Shown one piece after another: positions 48,329 to 56,596 of a stretch of 64,000 nt of DNA (position 1 is its first letter; every line of letters starts with the position of its first letter). A program made the position numbers and the translations under genes. Below the pieces are notes generated by a model that was not told the DNA's origin, did not search any database, and saw only the letters and a list, made by a program, of their open reading frames with translations. Source of the stretch: Terriglobia bacterium (GTDB taxonomy: Bacteria > Acidobacteriota > Terriglobia > Bryobacterales > UBA6623); the NCBI GenBank assembly GCA_009838515.1, contig VXRL01000025.1:1-64000 (forward strand). Direction: 5' to 3'.

Positions 48329-49348
48329 ATGGCTGACGGCAGCGAGGACCACGGCACCCGACCCCGTTCTCGTTCGGGAGCGTTGCGTTCTCGGATCAAG
48401 TCGGGGTACCTGCGCCCGGCGCTGGAGCGGCTTGGACCCAGCACGGGAGTGATTATCGGCTTCCTCCTCATCATCGTGCTCGGTGCGGTGCTATCTCCGA
48501 ACTTCATTTCCGAGCGGAACGTCCTCAACATCCTGCGACAGACCTCAATGCTCGGGGTTGTGACCGTCGGGATGACGTTCGTCATTCTGACGGCAGGCAT
48601 CGACCTCTCGGTGGGCATGACGCTCAGCCTCTACAGCGTGGTCGCCGCCATGCTCTTCGCGGACGGAGCGGGCTATCCACTGGCGATCGTCGTCGTTGCC
48701 ACACTGGTGCTGGGTATCGCCGTGGGCGCGTTCAACGCGGCGATCATCATCTGGCGCGGGGTGGCCCCCTTCATCGTGACCTTGGCCATGATGGCCATCG
48801 CTAGCGGGGCAGCCCTCACGATCTCGGGCGGCAAGCCGATTGGCGGAATCCAGGGAACGTACGCCTGGCTTGGGGCCGGGTCGATTGGGCCGGTTCCGGT
48901 ACCCGTGCTCATCATGCTTGCGGCCTTCGTGCTGGGTGATTTCGTGCTCCGATTCACGCCCTACGGACGCCAGGTGTACGCAGTGGGCGGCAATGAAGAG
49001 GCGGCGCGGCTGTCCGGGATTCCGGTGAACCGGGTAAAGCTCGTCACCTACATGATCAGCAACGCGTCTGCCGCGCTCGGCGGCATCATCTTCAGCGCCC
49101 GCGTCACGGTCGGCGATCCGTGGGCCGGCCGCGGGCTCGAGCTGGACGCTATCGCTTCGGTCGTGCTCGGCGGGACCAGCCTGTTCGGGGGAGTGGGGTC
49201 TCTATGGGGAACGCTGCTGGGCGCGCTGATCATCTCCATGATCAACAATCTGCTGAACTTGCTGAACGTGTCACCCTACACCCAAGGAATCGCCAAGGGC
49301 TGCATCATTCTGGTCGCCGTCGCGCTCTACAAGAAGCGAGAGGCGTGA
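48329..49348 (+). CDS. RbsC-type ABC transporter permease
   Basis: 339-residue membrane protein of the ribose/galactose/autoinducer permease family (PF02653). It has about 8-10 hydrophobic segments, with the signature VTVGMTFVILTAGIDLSVG, APFIVTLAMMAIASG, and ASVVLGGTSLFGGVGSLWGTLLGAL. A hydrophilic N-terminal tail of about 35 residues precedes them. It would form the channel with an RbsA-type ATPase. The binding-protein gene follows after 118 bases; the ATPase is encoded 4 kb away on the other strand at 54753. Confidence 0.92.
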   Translation: MADGSEDHGTRPRSRSGALRSRIKSGYLRPALERLGPSTGVIIGFLLIIVLGAVLSPNFISERNVLNILRQTSMLGVVTVGMTFVILTAGIDLSVGMTLSLYSVVAAMLFADGAGYPLAIVVVATLVLGIAVGAFNAAIIIWRGVAPFIVTLAMMAIASGAALTISGGKPIGGIQGTYAWLGAGSIGPVPVPVLIMLAAFVLGDFVLRFTPYGRQVYAVGGNEEAARLSGIPVNRVKLVTYMISNASAALGGIIFSARVTVGDPWAGRGLELDAIASVVLGGTSLFGGVGSLWGTLLGALIISMINNLLNLLNVSPYTQGIAKGCIILVAVALYKKREA

Positions 49349-49466: not shown

Positions 49467-50495
49467 GTGAGGACGGAACAGCGATCCGGTCATCGGCATT
49501 TTGCCTCGTGCCTGGCACTCGCGGGCCTCATTGCCGCCCTCGGTGCCTGCGCGAAGGACAAGGCTCCGGTCGACGCTAGCACGCCGGAGGCCTTCGGGGA
49601 CCGGGATTGGACCATCGGGTTCAGCAACGCGTCGGAGACCAACACCTGGCGCACCGCTCTGCGCGAATCCATCGAATCAGAGGTAGCCAAGTACGACAAC
49701 GTGGAGCTGCTGATTACCGACGCCAACGATTCGCCGGCCAAGCAAGTCTCGGACATGGAGGATCTGCTGACCAAGGGGGTCGACGGACTCATCATCGGCG
49801 CGGCGAATCTGTATGTGGCGAATCCGATCCTGGATGAGTGCGAGAAAGAGGGAATCCCCGTCGTGATCGTCGATCGCAAGGTCTCGAGTGAGAAGTACGA
49901 CACGTTCGTGTCGACGGATCACATGTACGGTGCCGTCAGGGGATTGACGAAGCTCATGGAGTTGATTGGTGGCAAAGGGAAGATCGCCATCCTCGAAGGA
50001 CTCCCGGGGGCGGGTCCGGCTGTGGAGAGGAATGCCGGTTATGACGAAGTGCTCGAGAAGTATCCGGAGGTCGAGGCGGTGCGGCAGGCCGGAGACTGGT
50101 CAAGGGCGAGCGGGCAGCGGGTCATGGAAAACATCATCACGGCCCACCCGGATCTCGACGGCATTCACTTCGACAACGGGGAAATGGCGGTTGGAGGCAT
50201 CCAGGCGCTGCGCGCAGCAGGCATAACCGACGACATGATGAGGGCCAGTCGACCCTGCCTCACCTGGCTCGACGGCTACAACGGGGGCCTGAAGATGATT
50301 AAGGCCGGGCTGGGCAAGTACACCATCCTCCATCCGCCTCGCCTGCACGGCTCGCTCAGCGTGACTTCAATGATCCAGATCTTCAGGGGCGAGACAGTCC
50401 CAATGCGCCAGCCAATTGCGCTGGACGAGATCACCCGGGAGAATGTCGACCAGTTCGTCGCGATGGACGAGCCCGACGACTTCTGGACCCGGTAG
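49467..50495 (+). CDS. Periplasmic sugar-binding-like lipoprotein of ABC transporter
   Basis: 342-residue RbsB/type I periplasmic binding protein. LALAGLIAALGAC is a lipoprotein signal, followed by WTIGFSNASETNTWRTALR, LITDANDSPAKQVSDMEDLL, GVDGLIIGAAN and VVIVDRKV, the classic first-lobe pattern, and IHFDNGEMAVGGIQAL in the second lobe. The ligand could be a sugar, nucleoside or other polar molecule. The start is GTG behind the strong Shine-Dalgarno GAGGAGGAAGAG. It is expressed with the permease gene and converges on the small cysteine protein gene. Confidence 0.9.
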   Translation: MRTEQRSGHRHFASCLALAGLIAALGACAKDKAPVDASTPEAFGDRDWTIGFSNASETNTWRTALRESIESEVAKYDNVELLITDANDSPAKQVSDMEDLLTKGVDGLIIGAANLYVANPILDECEKEGIPVVIVDRKVSSEKYDTFVSTDHMYGAVRGLTKLMELIGGKGKIAILEGLPGAGPAVERNAGYDEVLEKYPEVEAVRQAGDWSRASGQRVMENIITAHPDLDGIHFDNGEMAVGGIQALRAAGITDDMMRASRPCLTWLDGYNGGLKMIKAGLGKYTILHPPRLHGSLSVTSMIQIFRGETVPMRQPIALDEITRENVDQFVAMDEPDDFWTR

Positions 50496-50579: not shown

Positions 50580-50771
50580 TCACGCCTCCCGGTCCTGCGA
50601 CGGGACCCAATAGTCGTTGTAGAGCTTCTCGCAGTCCGGATCGCAGAAGACCAGCCGTTCCGCGCCTTCTTCCACGACCCAGAAATTCTTCGGAATGATT
50701 CGCCCGCAAAGATCGCAGTAGATCATCGTTTGCTCGTACCACTCCGCGGTGTTCTCGTCCCAGCGACCCAT
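50580..50771 (-). CDS. Small four-cysteine protein associated with hyuAB
   Basis: 63 residues: MGRWDENTAEWYEQ then Cys19, Cys22, Cys43 and Cys47 in the pattern CxxC-x20-CxxxC, with IYCDLCGRIIPKN and VFCDPDCEKLYNDYW. The pattern suggests a treble-clef or ribbon zinc site. GGAG stands 9 bases before the ATG, and the gene follows hyuB on the same strand after 83 bases, so it is likely the last gene of the hyu unit. I do not recognise the family: it does not look like acetone carboxylase gamma, the small subunit of related enzymes. A third subunit or metallochaperone for HyuAB is an inference. Confidence 0.7.
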   Translation of the reverse strand: MGRWDENTAEWYEQTMIYCDLCGRIIPKNFWVVEEGAERLVFCDPDCEKLYNDYWVPSQDREA

Positions 50772-50854
50772 CCGTTTATGCTCCGTATCGAAACTGCAGG
50801 CTCGTTCCCGGCCCGACCGTCGGGTCGGTCGCTCGCAGGAATCCGAAACGCTTC

Positions 50855-52555
50855 CTAGGGGTCATACCCATAGAGCTCTCGCGCGCCGTCCGGAGAGATC
50901 CATCCCTGGCGCAAATCCCGCTCGATCGCTTCGGGCGATCGCTCCGCTGGCGGACCGTAGCCGCCACCTCCTGGCGAATGGATCATCACCTCGTCGCCCT
51001 CGTTCAGCAGGACCCGCGTGAACTTGGAATCGGAGACCGTGCCGAACGCCTCCGAGAAAGTCCGGAACTGCGTGTCGCCCTTCTTCTTGACAAAGATCCC
51101 GCCACGGCCACCCTTGCCGCCCCCGAAGAGGCCCCACGCGTGGGTCTTGGTGCGGTCCATCAGCGCGCTCACCGTGATCTCGGGGGCCAGAACACGTAGG
51201 ATGCGGGAGCTACCGAGTCCGCCGCGGAACCTGCCGGGCCCGCCCGAGTCCGATCGAAGCCGGTATTCGAGAGTTCTCCAGGGAAACTTGTTCTCCAGCA
51301 CTTCGACCGGGGTGTTGCGGCAGTTTCCGTTCTCTGGGCACATTGCCGAGTTCCCGTCGTGGAATCCCGTGGCACCCCAGCCGCTGCCGTCAATGTGGTA
51401 GTTGGTGTAGTACTCGCCGGTATCGGGGTGAACGCCAGCGAACAGGAAGTTGCAGCCGCTGGCCCCCTCCGCGGCGGCCGCCCGCTCGGGAATCGCCTGG
51501 CTCAGGGCCGCCACGACGACATTCTGGATGTGCGGGTGCGTTTCCGTGTTGCCGCCGACCGAGGGACCCGGGTGTCGCACGTTGACGACCGAACCGGGCT
51601 TGGTCACGACCCGAATCGGCCGGTAGCAGCCGGAATTGCGAGGGATGTCATTGCTCGTCAGGTGAAGGAGGCCGCTGTAGGAGGCGGCGGCCGTGACCAC
51701 GAAGGTGGCGTTTACCGGCCCTCTGGCCTGCGGGTCGGACTGGGTCCAGTCGGCAATCACCTCGTCGTCCCTGACGACGAGCTTGAGCCTGATCCATACC
51801 GGCTGGTCGGTGACTCCGTCGTCCTCCATGCAATCGCTCGCATGGTACTCGCCGTTCGGGATTTCCCGGATCTCCTCCCTCATCCATCGCTCGGAGTAAT
51901 CCAGAAGCCGGTCACTTGCGGCCGTGAGAAACAACCCGCCGTAGCGCTCCAGCATGCCGAGCAGCCGCGTTTCCGCGATGCTCAGCGAACCGATCATCGC
52001 ATGCAGATCCCCCCAGCTCGTCTTCGGGGTGCGGTGATTGCTCAGGATGATCTTCCAGACGTCCTTGACATACTCTCCACGGCTGATGACCTTGACAGGC
52101 GGAAGCCGCAGCCCCTCCTGGTAGACCTCCGTGGCATCGGCCGCGAATGAGCCTGGTGCCATGCCGCCGATTTCCCCGACATGCGCGATGTTGGCAACGA
52201 ATCCCCAAATCTGGCCCTCGAAGAACACCGGCTTGAGCACCATGTGCTCCGGCATGTGGCACTGCCCGCGATACGGGTCGTTGTGAACGACGACGTCACC
52301 CGGCTCGAACGACTCCAGGCCGAGTTCCTCGATGGTCCAGTTGACCGCGTACTGTGCCGAGCCCAGCATGGTCGGACAGAATTCGGCCTGGCCGATCATG
52401 TCGCCCCGCCTGTTGAAAATCACGCACGAGAAGTCCAGGCCCTCGTTGAAGATGGGCGAGTAGCTCGTCCGCATCATCGCCGTCCCCATTTCTCGGCAGA
52501 TGTTGATCAGAGCATTGTTGATCACGCTCAAGGTGACGGTATCGATCGTTTCCAT
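50855..52555 (-). CDS. hyuB: Hydantoinase B/oxoprolinase-type subunit
   Basis: 566-residue subunit of the HyuB/OPLAH C-terminal/acetone-carboxylase-like family. Conserved parts: INNALINICREMGTAMMRTSYS, VVHNDPYRGQCHMPEHMV, HVGEIGGMAPGS, GGNTETHPHIQNVVVAALSQ, and the C-terminal GGGKGGRGG and HSPGGGGYGPP. The family hydrolyses cyclic amides such as hydantoins or 5-oxoproline, or carboxylates ketones, together with the ATP-using HyuA subunit. Which reaction applies is open. It starts 13 bases after hyuA. Confidence 0.9.
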   Translation of the reverse strand: METIDTVTLSVINNALINICREMGTAMMRTSYSPIFNEGLDFSCVIFNRRGDMIGQAEFCPTMLGSAQYAVNWTIEELGLESFEPGDVVVHNDPYRGQCHMPEHMVLKPVFFEGQIWGFVANIAHVGEIGGMAPGSFAADATEVYQEGLRLPPVKVISRGEYVKDVWKIILSNHRTPKTSWGDLHAMIGSLSIAETRLLGMLERYGGLFLTAASDRLLDYSERWMREEIREIPNGEYHASDCMEDDGVTDQPVWIRLKLVVRDDEVIADWTQSDPQARGPVNATFVVTAAASYSGLLHLTSNDIPRNSGCYRPIRVVTKPGSVVNVRHPGPSVGGNTETHPHIQNVVVAALSQAIPERAAAAEGASGCNFLFAGVHPDTGEYYTNYHIDGSGWGATGFHDGNSAMCPENGNCRNTPVEVLENKFPWRTLEYRLRSDSGGPGRFRGGLGSSRILRVLAPEITVSALMDRTKTHAWGLFGGGKGGRGGIFVKKKGDTQFRTFSEAFGTVSDSKFTRVLLNEGDEVMIHSPGGGGYGPPAERSPEAIERDLRQGWISPDGARELYGYDP

Positions 52556-52568
52556 GCTTCGGGCTTTC

Positions 52569-54623
52569 TCACGCGAGGATGCTGATGACGCCGTTGCGGT
52601 CTACCCTGAGCGTGTGCCCGGGGTGAACCGGGATCGTGGAATCGGCTTCCTCGATCATGGCGGGGCCGACGAGCGAGAACTGGCCGGGCAGATCGTCGCG
52701 TCTGTAGACGGGGCACGAGACGAACCCGCTCCGGTCAAAGAAGACCTCGCGGCTTTGCCTGGGACGAGGGTCTCCACCGCTCGGAGGCGCCCTAAGCCGA
52801 GGCTTCCTGGTTCGCCCCACCGCGGTGACGTTGACACGGATCATTTCGATGACCTCGCCGCTGATCGAGTAGCCGTAGAGCTGTTCGTGGAGCCGGTGAA
52901 ACTCGCCGAAGGCCTGCTGCAGACTCTCGGCACTCACGCCACCGCCCTCGAGCGACACGTCGTGCTCGTAGTTCTGTCCCGCGTACCGCATGCTGATCGA
53001 GCGAAGGATCTCCGGAACCGCGGAAAACCCTTCCTCGCGCAACTCGTCGCGAGCAGCGGCCTCCAGATCCCGGAACTGCTCGATGATCAGGTCCCCGTCC
53101 ATGCCGTCGGAGCGATAGTTGGTGCTCCACACCTTGTCCACCTGGAAGTCAGCGAGTGCCGCTCCGAATGCCGAGCAAAGTCCGGGATAGAGGGGAATCA
53201 CGATCCGGGTCATGCCCATCTTTTCGACAATGCCACCGGCGTGCAGCGGCCCGGCCCCGCCGAACGCGACCAGGCTGAAGTCCCGCGGGTCCAGGCCGCG
53301 CTCGATCGAAACAAGGCGAATGGCGTTGGCCATGTTCTCGTTGGCCATGTCGATGACCGCTTGGGCCGCCTCGACGGCACTCAAAGACAGCTCGCTGCCC
53401 AGCTTGGCGAGTCCTTCGCGAGCCCTCGTCGCCTCCAGCTTCATCTTGCCCCCGAGGAAGTACTCCGGATTCAGGCGTCCCAGGGTCAGATTGGCATCGG
53501 TGACAGTCACCTCAGTGCCCCCTCGCCCGTAGCAGAGTGGTCCGGGCATGGCCCCGGCGCTCTGCGGGCCGACTCGAAGGAACCCTCCCTTGTCGATCCA
53601 GGCCACGCTTCCGCCACCCGCCCCGATCGCGGTCAGGTCGACAAATGGAGCGCTGATGGGGAGTCCCCATTCGATCTCGTAGTTCGTGATGTAGGAGAGC
53701 TTGCCTCCCTGTACCACGCCCACGTCGCAGCTCGTGCCTCCCATGTCCACCGTAATGAGGTCCTGCTGCTCGGCGAGGTCCCCGAAGTACTTGCCTCCGA
53801 TGATCCCGCCGCTCTGCCCGGACAGGATGAGGTTGACGGGCTGACCCTCTGCAGCGCTGGCACTCGCGTGGCCACCGTTGGATTTCATGATGGCCCAGGG
53901 ACAGGACAGGCCCAGACTGTCCAGGCTCTCGCGGACGGAGTTCACGTAGCGTTGGAGCAGAGGCTTGACGAAGGCATCCGCGACGACCGTGCTGCCCCGT
54001 TCGTATTCCCTCCAGATCGGCGCAACCTCGTGCGAGATTGACACCGCAACCCCGGGAAACCGCGACTGCAGGAACTCCTTCAGGCGGAGTTCGTGGTCAG
54101 GATTGAGGTACGAGAAAAGGAGGCAGACCGCAATGGCGGAGTCTTCCACGCGGTGTCCTTCCAGCCGTGCCTCGACCTCGCGGGCCAGCTGCTCCATGGA
54201 TTCCCGTTCCAGCGGGACGACGACCTGGCCCTTGGCGTCGATACGCTCCCGCACGCCCACGCAGTTGCGCATCTCGACGAACGGAAGCGGCTTGGTCCAC
54301 TCGTAGGAGTAGTGGTAGCGCCGGTTCATCCGTTGGATATAGAGGACATCCTCGAAGCCCTCGGTGGTGACATAGACCACGTAGGCTCCCCTGCGCTGGA
54401 TCAGCGCGTTCGTTGCTACCGTGGTTCCAAGAATCAGGAAATAGATGCTTTCCGGCGGCAGGCCCGACTCCTTCACGACATTGACGATCGCTTCGACCGG
54501 GTTGTCGTGGGAGGAGGGCCATTTGGACGCAACCAGCTCGCCCGAGGCCTCGTCCACCGCGACGAAATCGGTAAAGGTCCCACCGGTATCGATTCCGCAA
54601 CGAACTCTGGTGTTCGCGTTCAT
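52569..54623 (-). CDS. hyuA: Hydantoinase A/oxoprolinase-type ATP-dependent subunit
   Basis: 684-residue subunit with the sugar-kinase/Hsp70-like ATP site: CGIDTGGTFTDFVAVDE at the start, LILGTTVATNALIQRRG, and TVDMGGTSCDVGVVQGG, followed by GAGGGSVAWIDKGGFLRVGPQSAG. FGGAGPLHAGGIVEKMGM is the usual HyuA segment. It phosphorylates the substrate to activate it for ring opening or carboxylation. The resemblance to acetone/acetophenone carboxylase subunits is as good as to oxoprolinase. It stands between the RbsA-type ATPase (129 bases upstream) and hyuB, all on the minus strand. Confidence 0.92.
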   Translation of the reverse strand: MNANTRVRCGIDTGGTFTDFVAVDEASGELVASKWPSSHDNPVEAIVNVVKESGLPPESIYFLILGTTVATNALIQRRGAYVVYVTTEGFEDVLYIQRMNRRYHYSYEWTKPLPFVEMRNCVGVRERIDAKGQVVVPLERESMEQLAREVEARLEGHRVEDSAIAVCLLFSYLNPDHELRLKEFLQSRFPGVAVSISHEVAPIWREYERGSTVVADAFVKPLLQRYVNSVRESLDSLGLSCPWAIMKSNGGHASASAAEGQPVNLILSGQSGGIIGGKYFGDLAEQQDLITVDMGGTSCDVGVVQGGKLSYITNYEIEWGLPISAPFVDLTAIGAGGGSVAWIDKGGFLRVGPQSAGAMPGPLCYGRGGTEVTVTDANLTLGRLNPEYFLGGKMKLEATRAREGLAKLGSELSLSAVEAAQAVIDMANENMANAIRLVSIERGLDPRDFSLVAFGGAGPLHAGGIVEKMGMTRIVIPLYPGLCSAFGAALADFQVDKVWSTNYRSDGMDGDLIIEQFRDLEAAARDELREEGFSAVPEILRSISMRYAGQNYEHDVSLEGGGVSAESLQQAFGEFHRLHEQLYGYSISGEVIEMIRVNVTAVGRTRKPRLRAPPSGGDPRPRQSREVFFDRSGFVSCPVYRRDDLPGQFSLVGPAMIEEADSTIPVHPGHTLRVDRNGVISILA

Positions 54624-54752: not shown

Positions 54753-56237
54753 CTACGTGGCAAGTTGCAAGACGTCTTCCCCCGTAGCGTCCTGGGACCG
54801 GAGATGTCCCGTGATCCGGCCTTTGCTCATCACGAGGACGCGGCTGCACAGGGAGAGTATCTCGGGGATTTCCGAGGAAACCAGCAGGACGGCCGCTCCG
54901 TCTCTCGCCAGTTCGGCGACGAGCTGGTGGATCTGGCTCTTGGCCGCGATGTCGATACCGACAGTCGGTTCGTCGAGCAGGAAAATCCTGGCCCGTGTGC
55001 CGAGGAGCTTCGCCAGCGCAACCTTCTGCTGGTTGCCCCCGCTCAGGTCTGCCGCAAGCTGCCGTCGTCCCGTGGCGCGGACATTCATTCTGGCGAGCAT
55101 TGAATCCACGAACCGATTCTCTCCGCCCAGGTTGAGAAGGCCCCGGTAGGTGAACCGGCGAAGGATCGGCAGCGTGACGTTCCTGCCAATCGGGTGGGAC
55201 AAGATCAGGCCCTCATTGTGGCGATCCTTGGACAGAAAGGCTATTCCACGAGCCATCGCATCGCCCGGGGATTCTATCTGCGAAAGTTTTCCTTCGATAT
55301 AGACCTTTCCGTCATCGTGGGACACAGCTCCGAAGATTGCCTTGCACAGGTCCGTTCGCCCTGCTCCCACCAATCCGGCAAGGCCTAGGATCTCCCCACC
55401 ATGCAGCTCGAAGCTCACGTCCTCGAAGGCGCCCTCGCGAGTCAGTCCCTCGACGCGCAGCAACTCGTCTCCCCTCCGAGCCGGCAGTTCCGGGGATCGC
55501 TCGACCCATCCCGGGCCTACCATCCTGCGGATGAGGAATGCGGAGTCCACCTCGCCGTCAAGAGCGTAGGTGCCGACAGTTCGGCCGTCTTTGAGCACGG
55601 TTGCCCGGTCCGAGATCCGGAAGACCTCCTCCAGGCGATGCGATACGTAGACAATCGACGTGCCCGCCTCCCTGAGCTTGCGAATGATCCGGAACAGCCG
55701 TTCCAGCTCACTGGACCCCAGAGCCGCGGAAGGCTCGTCCATGATCAGGACTTGCGCCGACACCGAGAGAGCGCGCGCAATCTCGGCAATTTGCTGGCCG
55801 GCAGCGTCCAGATCCCCTGCCGGCCGGTGAACATCCAGTTCGAAATCCAGGCGCCTGAGCAGTGCGATTGCGTCTCGGTACAGCTTCTCCCAGTCGACCA
55901 GGCCCAGCTTGGTGCTGGGCATCCGTCCCAGAAAGATGTTCTCCGCAACCGTCAGGCTCGGAACGAGGCCCGAGTGCTGGTGGACGATCGAGATACCCCG
56001 TCGCAAGGCTTGGTGAGGGCTGTCGACGTCAATCGGGGAGCCGTGCAGGTGAATCGTGCCGGAATCCGGCTTGAGGGCGCCGGAGACGATCTTCATCAGC
56101 GTGGATTTGCCCGCTCCGTTCTCGCCGATCAGGGCGTGCACCTCTCCCTTTCGCAAGGAGAAGCTGACCCGGTCCAACGCTCTTGTTCCTCCGAAGGCCT
56201 TGCTGATCTCCCGTGTCTCCAGCATCGTCCCCGACAT
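54753..56237 (-). CDS. RbsA-type ABC transporter ATP-binding protein (two ATPase domains)
   Basis: 494 residues with two ABC domains, as in ribose/galactose importers. Domain 1: Walker A LIGENGAGKSTL at residues 37-47, the Q-loop SIVHQHSGL and Walker B VLIMDEPSAAL, with a degenerate signature (DLDAAGQQIAE). Domain 2 keeps the canonical signature DLSGGNQQKVALAKLL and IFLLDEPTVGID, but its Walker A region (GLVGAGRTDLCKAI) lacks the Lys, again as in RbsA relatives. It should pair with the permease and binding protein at 48329-50495. ATG 56237 is used; the longer frame is unlikely. It heads the hyu gene series. Confidence 0.92.
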   Translation of the reverse strand: MSGTMLETREISKAFGGTRALDRVSFSLRKGEVHALIGENGAGKSTLMKIVSGALKPDSGTIHLHGSPIDVDSPHQALRRGISIVHQHSGLVPSLTVAENIFLGRMPSTKLGLVDWEKLYRDAIALLRRLDFELDVHRPAGDLDAAGQQIAEIARALSVSAQVLIMDEPSAALGSSELERLFRIIRKLREAGTSIVYVSHRLEEVFRISDRATVLKDGRTVGTYALDGEVDSAFLIRRMVGPGWVERSPELPARRGDELLRVEGLTREGAFEDVSFELHGGEILGLAGLVGAGRTDLCKAIFGAVSHDDGKVYIEGKLSQIESPGDAMARGIAFLSKDRHNEGLILSHPIGRNVTLPILRRFTYRGLLNLGGENRFVDSMLARMNVRATGRRQLAADLSGGNQQKVALAKLLGTRARIFLLDEPTVGIDIAAKSQIHQLVAELARDGAAVLLVSSEIPEILSLCSRVLVMSKGRITGHLRSQDATGEDVLQLAT

Positions 56238-56596
56238 GTCTCTGCCCGTTCCCTTGTCTGGTCCGCCCCGGCTCTGCCCTACATTCTGCGGCTTCCCTCG
56301 TAGCGACGGGTCCGGTCCCGCGGGGATGGCCGCTAATTCGGCTACGAAGTCACGGACCGCGCGGGGCACTCCATTCGGATGACCGCGCGAGGCGCATGTC
56401 CCAAGCCATTTGAACCGGGCTGAACGACACTGCGGCGGCCCGACCGCAATTGAGAGTTCAGGACCCTCAATCTGGTCTTCACCGCCAGTACGGCCCATCC
56501 GGCAATTCCCCGCCAACAAGGCGTGCACGCGTACGAGAGGCCACGAATCCGTCCCCGTGATACTATCCGGAAACGGACGCGCAGTGGCTGGGCGTC
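56238..56596. other. Divergent control region of rbsA-hyu series and small membrane gene
   Basis: About 360 bases without a gene. It contains a small inverted repeat ATTGAG (56449-56454) / CTCAAT (56466-56471) about 220 bases upstream of the ATPase gene, and a TACTAT -10-like hexamer at 56561-56566 pointing towards the small gene. Confidence 0.35.

Follow-up and report, generated by a model that had tools for sequence, protein, structure and literature searches.

A small four-cysteine protein encoded with hyuAB is a probable third subunit of one clade of ATP-dependent hydantoinase/lactamase enzymes

A gene next to hyuAB in a member of the Acidobacteriota encodes a small four-cysteine protein of 63 amino acids that is probably a zinc-finger subunit belonging to a separate subclass of the ATP-dependent hydantoinase/lactamase enzymes (HyuAB). 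We put the probability of this reading, which includes the prediction that the protein binds zinc and docks on HyuB, at about 0.7. The protein, hereafter the finger, travels with one branch of HyuAB in bacteria and in one archaeon and is sometimes fused to one part of the enzyme, and for these reasons we consider it a third subunit that has probably been overlooked. The DNA analysed, here called the window, is a stretch of 64,000 nucleotides from a Terriglobia bacterium (positions 1 to 64,000 of contig VXRL01000025.1).

The finger gene occupies 50580..50771 on the minus strand, where the list of open reading frames of the window gives it an ATG start and a product of 63 amino acids. Its cysteines C19, C22, C43 and C47 form the pattern CxxC-x20-CxxxC in a core of codons 19-47 (C19-x2-C22-x20-C43-x3-C47; 50631..50717, minus strand), as delimited on an alignment of 13 finger sequences. 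A Shine-Dalgarno-like GGAG (50781..50784, minus strand) lies 9 nt before the ATG, and a purine-rich site is found upstream of most relatives too; a scan for promoters and terminators gave nothing exceeding chance. The gene follows hyuB after a gap of 83 nt, and since the nearest convergent plus-strand gene stops at 50495, no likely gene overlaps the reading frame. Frame, length (62-65 aa) and motif are kept in the window gene and in seven distinct relatives from the same bacterial family. For these eight sequences pN/pS was below 1 in all 28 pairs (0.06-0.66, several dS values being saturated), with a range of 0.06-0.32 in the ten within-genus pairs, and their invariant columns include the four cysteines as well as W4, W11, W31, P27 and D46. 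Across the 13 aligned sequences C19, C22, G23 and C43 are invariant, and C47 is present in 12. These results confirm that the frame is a real gene and no chance open reading frame, and they agree with a first-pass annotation of the window, which had remarked on the Shine-Dalgarno sequence, the place at the end of the hyu unit and a cysteine spacing that looked conserved. One copy of the finger, in genome G010, is 100% identical to that of the window. The finger of a more distant genome, G194 (L034:9166-9450), has Val at the fourth cysteine, retains the Asp before it and ends in a longer C-terminal extension.

Upstream of the finger gene on the minus strand are hyuB (50855..52555; PF02538, E 5.9e-176), which encodes the beta subunit with the metal site and aligns with CapB over 1-563, and hyuA (52569..54623; PF05378, PF01968 and PF19278), which encodes the ATP-binding alpha subunit. 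The best NCBIfam scores of the pair are 516 bits for CapA and 326 bits for CapB, both under the equivalog cut-offs, and because this best match is caprolactamase we regard the window hyuAB as hydrolase-type (Hyd) rather than a carboxylase. Three conserved neighbours complete the picture: the double-ABC ATPase of a ribose-type importer (54753..56528, minus strand; PF00005 in two stretches), its substrate-binding protein, convergent with the finger gene (49467..50495, plus strand; PF13407, E 1.3e-51), and its permease (48329..49348, plus strand; PF02653, E 1.4e-38). The conserved unit around the window consists of the importer, hyuAB and the finger only. Homology of the ATPase frame begins at about residue 91-103 in all relatives except a near-identical one, which suggests that its mechanically assigned GTG start is probably some 90-100 codons too early. 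The arrangement also varies within the set of loci L020 and L022: in G011 the permease and binding protein are on the far side of the ATPase and divergent from it, not converging on the finger gene, and the 19.5 kb fetched for G017 contain neither of the two.

Convincing homologues of the finger occur in 11 Acidobacteriota genomes and 20 plasmid records, near-copies included, and all 31 sit in hyuAB clusters. A profile search and a test of linkage to hyuAB had been proposed in the first-pass annotation; homologues were found beyond the window genome, and none of the convincing ones was unlinked. The finger gene is present in nine of the 18 genomes of the family, and in all nine it is on the same strand and directly 3' of hyuB, the placement in G010 being taken through its copy L005. 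In 21 relatives, the scope of a survey for the codon pattern NDPYRGxxHxPEH of HyuB, this pattern, the finger and a HyuB at E<=1e-100 co-occur in the same seven genomes. An eight-row profile was searched over 396 genomes of the phylum and, among the nine genomes listed, gave convincing matches in the window genome and G194 only; the finger gene of G194 lies 3' of a hyuB whose product is 53% identical to that of the window. As a held-out check, a 13-row profile searched over 193 genomes of the class of G194 yielded a new match in G563, the surroundings of which were not known beforehand, and directly upstream of this finger is a HyuB with 45.6% identity over the 399 residues present on the contig.

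The 20 plasmid records listed nearest to the window HyuB (45-54% identity), from Alphaproteobacteria and a haloarchaeon, all hold a small CxxC..CxxxC protein or domain. Nineteen were found via a search with the Shinella protein and that of the archaeon Halalkalicoccus by inspection; eight records were read as regions and the remainder judged by coordinates. The finger is encoded directly 3' of hyuB in Shinella, Sulfitobacter and Sinorhizobium, between hyuA and hyuB in Rhizobium, directly before hyuA in Halalkalicoccus, and 8 kb before hyuB within one co-oriented cluster in Methylobacterium, where the finger gene and the 3' end of a GntR regulator gene overlap. In Shinella and Sulfitobacter the intergenic gap is down to 3 nt and AGGAGG precedes the finger start. 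Free plasmid fingers are annotated as "hypothetical protein" where they are annotated at all. The Methylobacterium aquaticum plasmid (L079:1-1142) carries a second hydantoinase B gene, about 1 kb ahead of the finger gene, and either HyuB may be the partner.

The finger forms the N-terminal part of the annotated HyuB in R. leguminosarum RCAM2802 and in all seven Agrobacterium vitis/A. ampelinum records, and the fusion was confirmed as a single open frame in two of these eight records, one of A. vitis and RCAM2802; among the five Rhizobium records it is restricted to one. The "Hydantoinase B" annotations of A. vitis (L076:4773-6695) and of one R. leguminosarum strain (L080:4001-5902) conceal this N-terminal domain, and in the fused A. 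vitis protein the Pfam Hydantoinase_B match begins only at residue 78. Identity between window-type fingers and those of the Alphaproteobacteria and the archaeon is only 17-23%, so that common descent of the two groups rests on position, cysteine frame and a common HyuB clade, and independent recruitment is possible. A search of plasmids with the window protein gave one weak match, in Monoglobus (E 0.3), and a scan of viral contigs found none.

The finger is strictly associated with one clade of HyuB. A six-frame motif search found no credible finger near 28 further HyuBs of Acidobacteriota (36-42% identity; the ones with loci returned below G194 in the HyuB search), within flanks of 1.5 kb and for L059 without downstream DNA, or around five plasmid HyuBs (34-40%), within flanks of 4-5 kb; because of the 1.5 kb flanks, a finger before hyuA could escape notice among the 28. 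Four regex matches near finger-less HyuBs were dropped as Arg/Cys-rich or very short frames. In a maximum-likelihood tree of 50 HyuBs, the 17 with a finger and the 33 without are split by a branch with 100/100 support, and one change of label is enough. Finger-bearing plasmids are represented in this tree by eight of the 20 records (the rest being near-copies or unfetched), G010 (identical) and G563 (partial) were excluded, and the HyuB segments of L051 and L054 contain a stop, entered as X. In the plasmid listing, identity to the Shinella HyuB falls from 50.9% to 41.2% at the point where the finger disappears.

The same clade is set apart at its metal site. Twenty-five alignment columns are fixed in at least 16 of the 17 finger HyuBs and rare elsewhere, and three of them cluster: E103 (17/17; Asp in all 33 others), H104 (17/17; Ile, Val or Leu in the others) and E128 (17/17; Asp in 32 of the 33 others). 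In the window, H100, E103 and H104 belong to the motif NDPYRGQCHMPEH (52244..52282, minus strand), where alignments and the codon pattern place the clade-specific change from Asp to Glu at a metal-ligand position. Alignment with solved structures equates H100, E103 and H125 of HyuB with H99, D102 and H124 of CapB, and E103 with an Asp found in the chains of Apc, acetone carboxylase and N-methylhydantoinase; at the E128 position Apc has Glu as well. The metal of caprolactamase is bound by the tetrad D41-H99-D102-H124, and replacing any one of these residues with Ala gives an inactive enzyme (PMC8453981). Asp41-His99-Asp102-His124 in CapB (PMC8453981) stands against Asp41-His100-Glu103-His125 in the window HyuB, with His104 extra. 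As E103 falls on CapB D102, whose Ala mutant is inactive, the finger clade has an altered residue in the catalytic metal site, and the finger may be functionally linked to this change. More tentatively, and on balance we would not expect it, the finger subunit and the Asp-to-Glu, extra-His centre could be one functional innovation, with the finger shaping or gating the site for another metal or another second step, in which case the "hydantoinase B" labels in this clade would name the wrong reaction.

If the finger is a subunit, its four cysteines would most likely bind one zinc in a treble-clef-like finger, which would dock stoichiometrically on HyuB near the N-terminal domain that is expected to hold the catalytic metal and to face HyuA. 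Docking would stabilise or position this domain, as has been suggested for gamma in acetone/acetophenone carboxylase. HyuA would then use ATP to phosphorylate an amide or lactam carbonyl, and hydrolysis of the phosphorylated intermediate would follow at the metal site of HyuB with its Glu for the usual Asp ligand and its extra His. An AlphaFold model of the finger has four strands and then a helix near CxxxC at low confidence (mean pLDDT 49.5). The fusions suggest that finger and HyuB are in contact. Of the two roles offered in the first-pass annotation, an undescribed third subunit or a chaperone, the former has gained from the linkage to hyuAB at 31 of 31 loci and from the fusions, and it is favoured over the latter because a single gene annotated as HyuB covers both proteins in eight plasmid records.

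A dedicated metal chaperone would be equally compatible with the strict pairing of the finger and a HyuB clade of altered metal site, and factors that insert the metal of HyuB or help the complex to fold, remaining outside the mature enzyme, can be cluster-encoded too. We nevertheless consider such an assembly or metallation factor unlikely, since the fusion in eight plasmid records implies a permanent 1:1 relation with HyuB and the two cysteine pairs appear to resemble a structural site, not a labile metal carrier. Nucleic-acid binding is common in small treble-clef-like fingers, which, together with the overlap of the Methylobacterium gene with a GntR regulator gene, would be in keeping with a small RNA- or DNA-binding regulator of the hyu operon. 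Against this, the finger is fused to HyuB, its gene shifts from after hyuB to between hyuA and hyuB or before hyuA with HyuAB always as the partner, and several clusters already have separate GntR or LacI regulators, all of which make a regulator very improbable.

We give least credence to true but divergent homology between the finger and the gamma subunit of the carboxylases (AcxC/ApcB, PF08882), which would make the enzyme one of the acetone-carboxylase-like three-subunit type, even though the finger occupies the same gene-order slot, third after beta as in acxABC (PMC5214803), and has a single four-cysteine site in a small protein. Neither the eight aligned family members nor four alphaproteobacterial/archaeal members matched PF08882 up to E 1, CxxC-x20-CxxxC differs from the Cys22/25/75/78 arrangement of the Apc gamma subunit, and the window HyuA and HyuB score highest against caprolactamase models. 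A real PF08882 protein, found in one of 199 genomes of the phylum (L102, G208:C62:27515-27766), has CxxC..CxxC and adjoins a different HyuB (31% identity); this locus is perhaps a carboxylase-type cluster. The comparison with multi-subunit carboxylases drawn in the first-pass annotation therefore holds as an analogy between small subunits, but not as to carboxylase identity, the best NCBIfam match being caprolactamase, or homology to gamma, for want of PF08882.

The finger clusters contain gabT and succinate-semialdehyde dehydrogenase in Shinella, an aminotransferase and succinate-semialdehyde dehydrogenase in Sulfitobacter, aminotransferases in A. vitis and Methylobacterium, a D-serine dehydratase-like protein (Pfam) in G194 and an amine oxidase in Halalkalicoccus. 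Judged from these genes, the pathway may be the opening of a lactam or hydantoin ring to an amino acid, followed by transamination. Hydantoinases are described as two-subunit enzymes that lack the zinc subunit present in the carboxylases, a subunit of unclear role itself (PMC5214803), and in titles and abstract openings of open-licence PMC articles we found no description of a HyuAB-type hydrolase with a small zinc subunit. If our reading is true, the same catalytic core acquired a small zinc subunit on at least two occasions, as the finger is apparently unrelated to gamma, and its free, fused and absent states are a natural experiment on the role of such subunits. HyuAB of the finger clade expressed alone might be an incomplete enzyme. 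Reannotation can be immediate, because the clade is recognisable by one residue (HxPEH vs HxxD) and by a "hypothetical protein" gene where the finger is separately annotated.

The cysteine spacing of the finger recurs in several known families. The TRASH motif has the spacing C-x(19-22)-C-x3-C, which C22-x20-C43-x3-C47 fits, and the finger scores 15.9 bits against TRASH (PF08394), short of the Pfam cut-off of 27. The small treble-clef fingers TRASH, DUF7576 (PF24461), ribosomal L24e and NCBIfam PP0621 are alike in CxxC-x(about 20)-CxxxC, and all gave sub-threshold matches, none at the family cut-off; L24e was among the best PDB profile matches (E 0.0022). Taken together, the spacing and these weak matches point towards the treble-clef group. 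Small Acidobacteriota frames of 84-248 aa with CxxCG..FCSxxC (L087, L089-L093, L095, L096) look PP0621-like by eye. Such PP0621-like fingers were excluded as homologues, having no hyuAB within 1.5 kb flanks, and matches in large frames (372-836 aa; also G003, G006 and G000:C40) were dropped; those inspected are a P-type ATPase-like and a heterodisulfide-reductase-like protein, named by reading the sequence, and the others were judged by their short partial match.

The closest known systems are the Hyd and carboxylase enzymes themselves. Like the Hyd branch and CapAB, the window pair has Hydantoinase_A and Hydantoinase_B domains and its HyuB aligns with CapB along the length given above; unlike the two-gene Hyd enzymes, all 31 finger loci have an extra gene or domain. 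According to PMC5214803, Acx is alpha-beta-gamma with acxC after acxB and Hyd is alpha-beta without gamma, and gamma is a four-cysteine, probably zinc-binding protein that is embraced by the beta subunit and probably has a structural role. The gamma of acetone carboxylase is Yippee-like (PMC5543143), and both papers describe AcxC/ApcB gamma as beta-associated with no catalytic role assigned. The finger resembles this gamma in being small, in having one four-cysteine site, with zinc in gamma, and in the place of its gene beside the alpha and beta genes (PMC5214803 and PMC5543143). The gamma-like slot directly after the beta gene is taken in the nine family genomes, G194, G563, Shinella and Sulfitobacter, and other positions are found elsewhere. 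It differs in size (about 7 kDa vs 15-20 kDa), in its Hyd-type partner enzyme, and in its CxxC-x20-CxxxC pattern, whereas the two CxxC pairs of gamma are about 47-50 residues apart (Apc Cys22/25/75/78; PMC5214803). The best reading of this comparison is that the finger would function like the carboxylase gamma subunit, with no detectable relatedness between the two.
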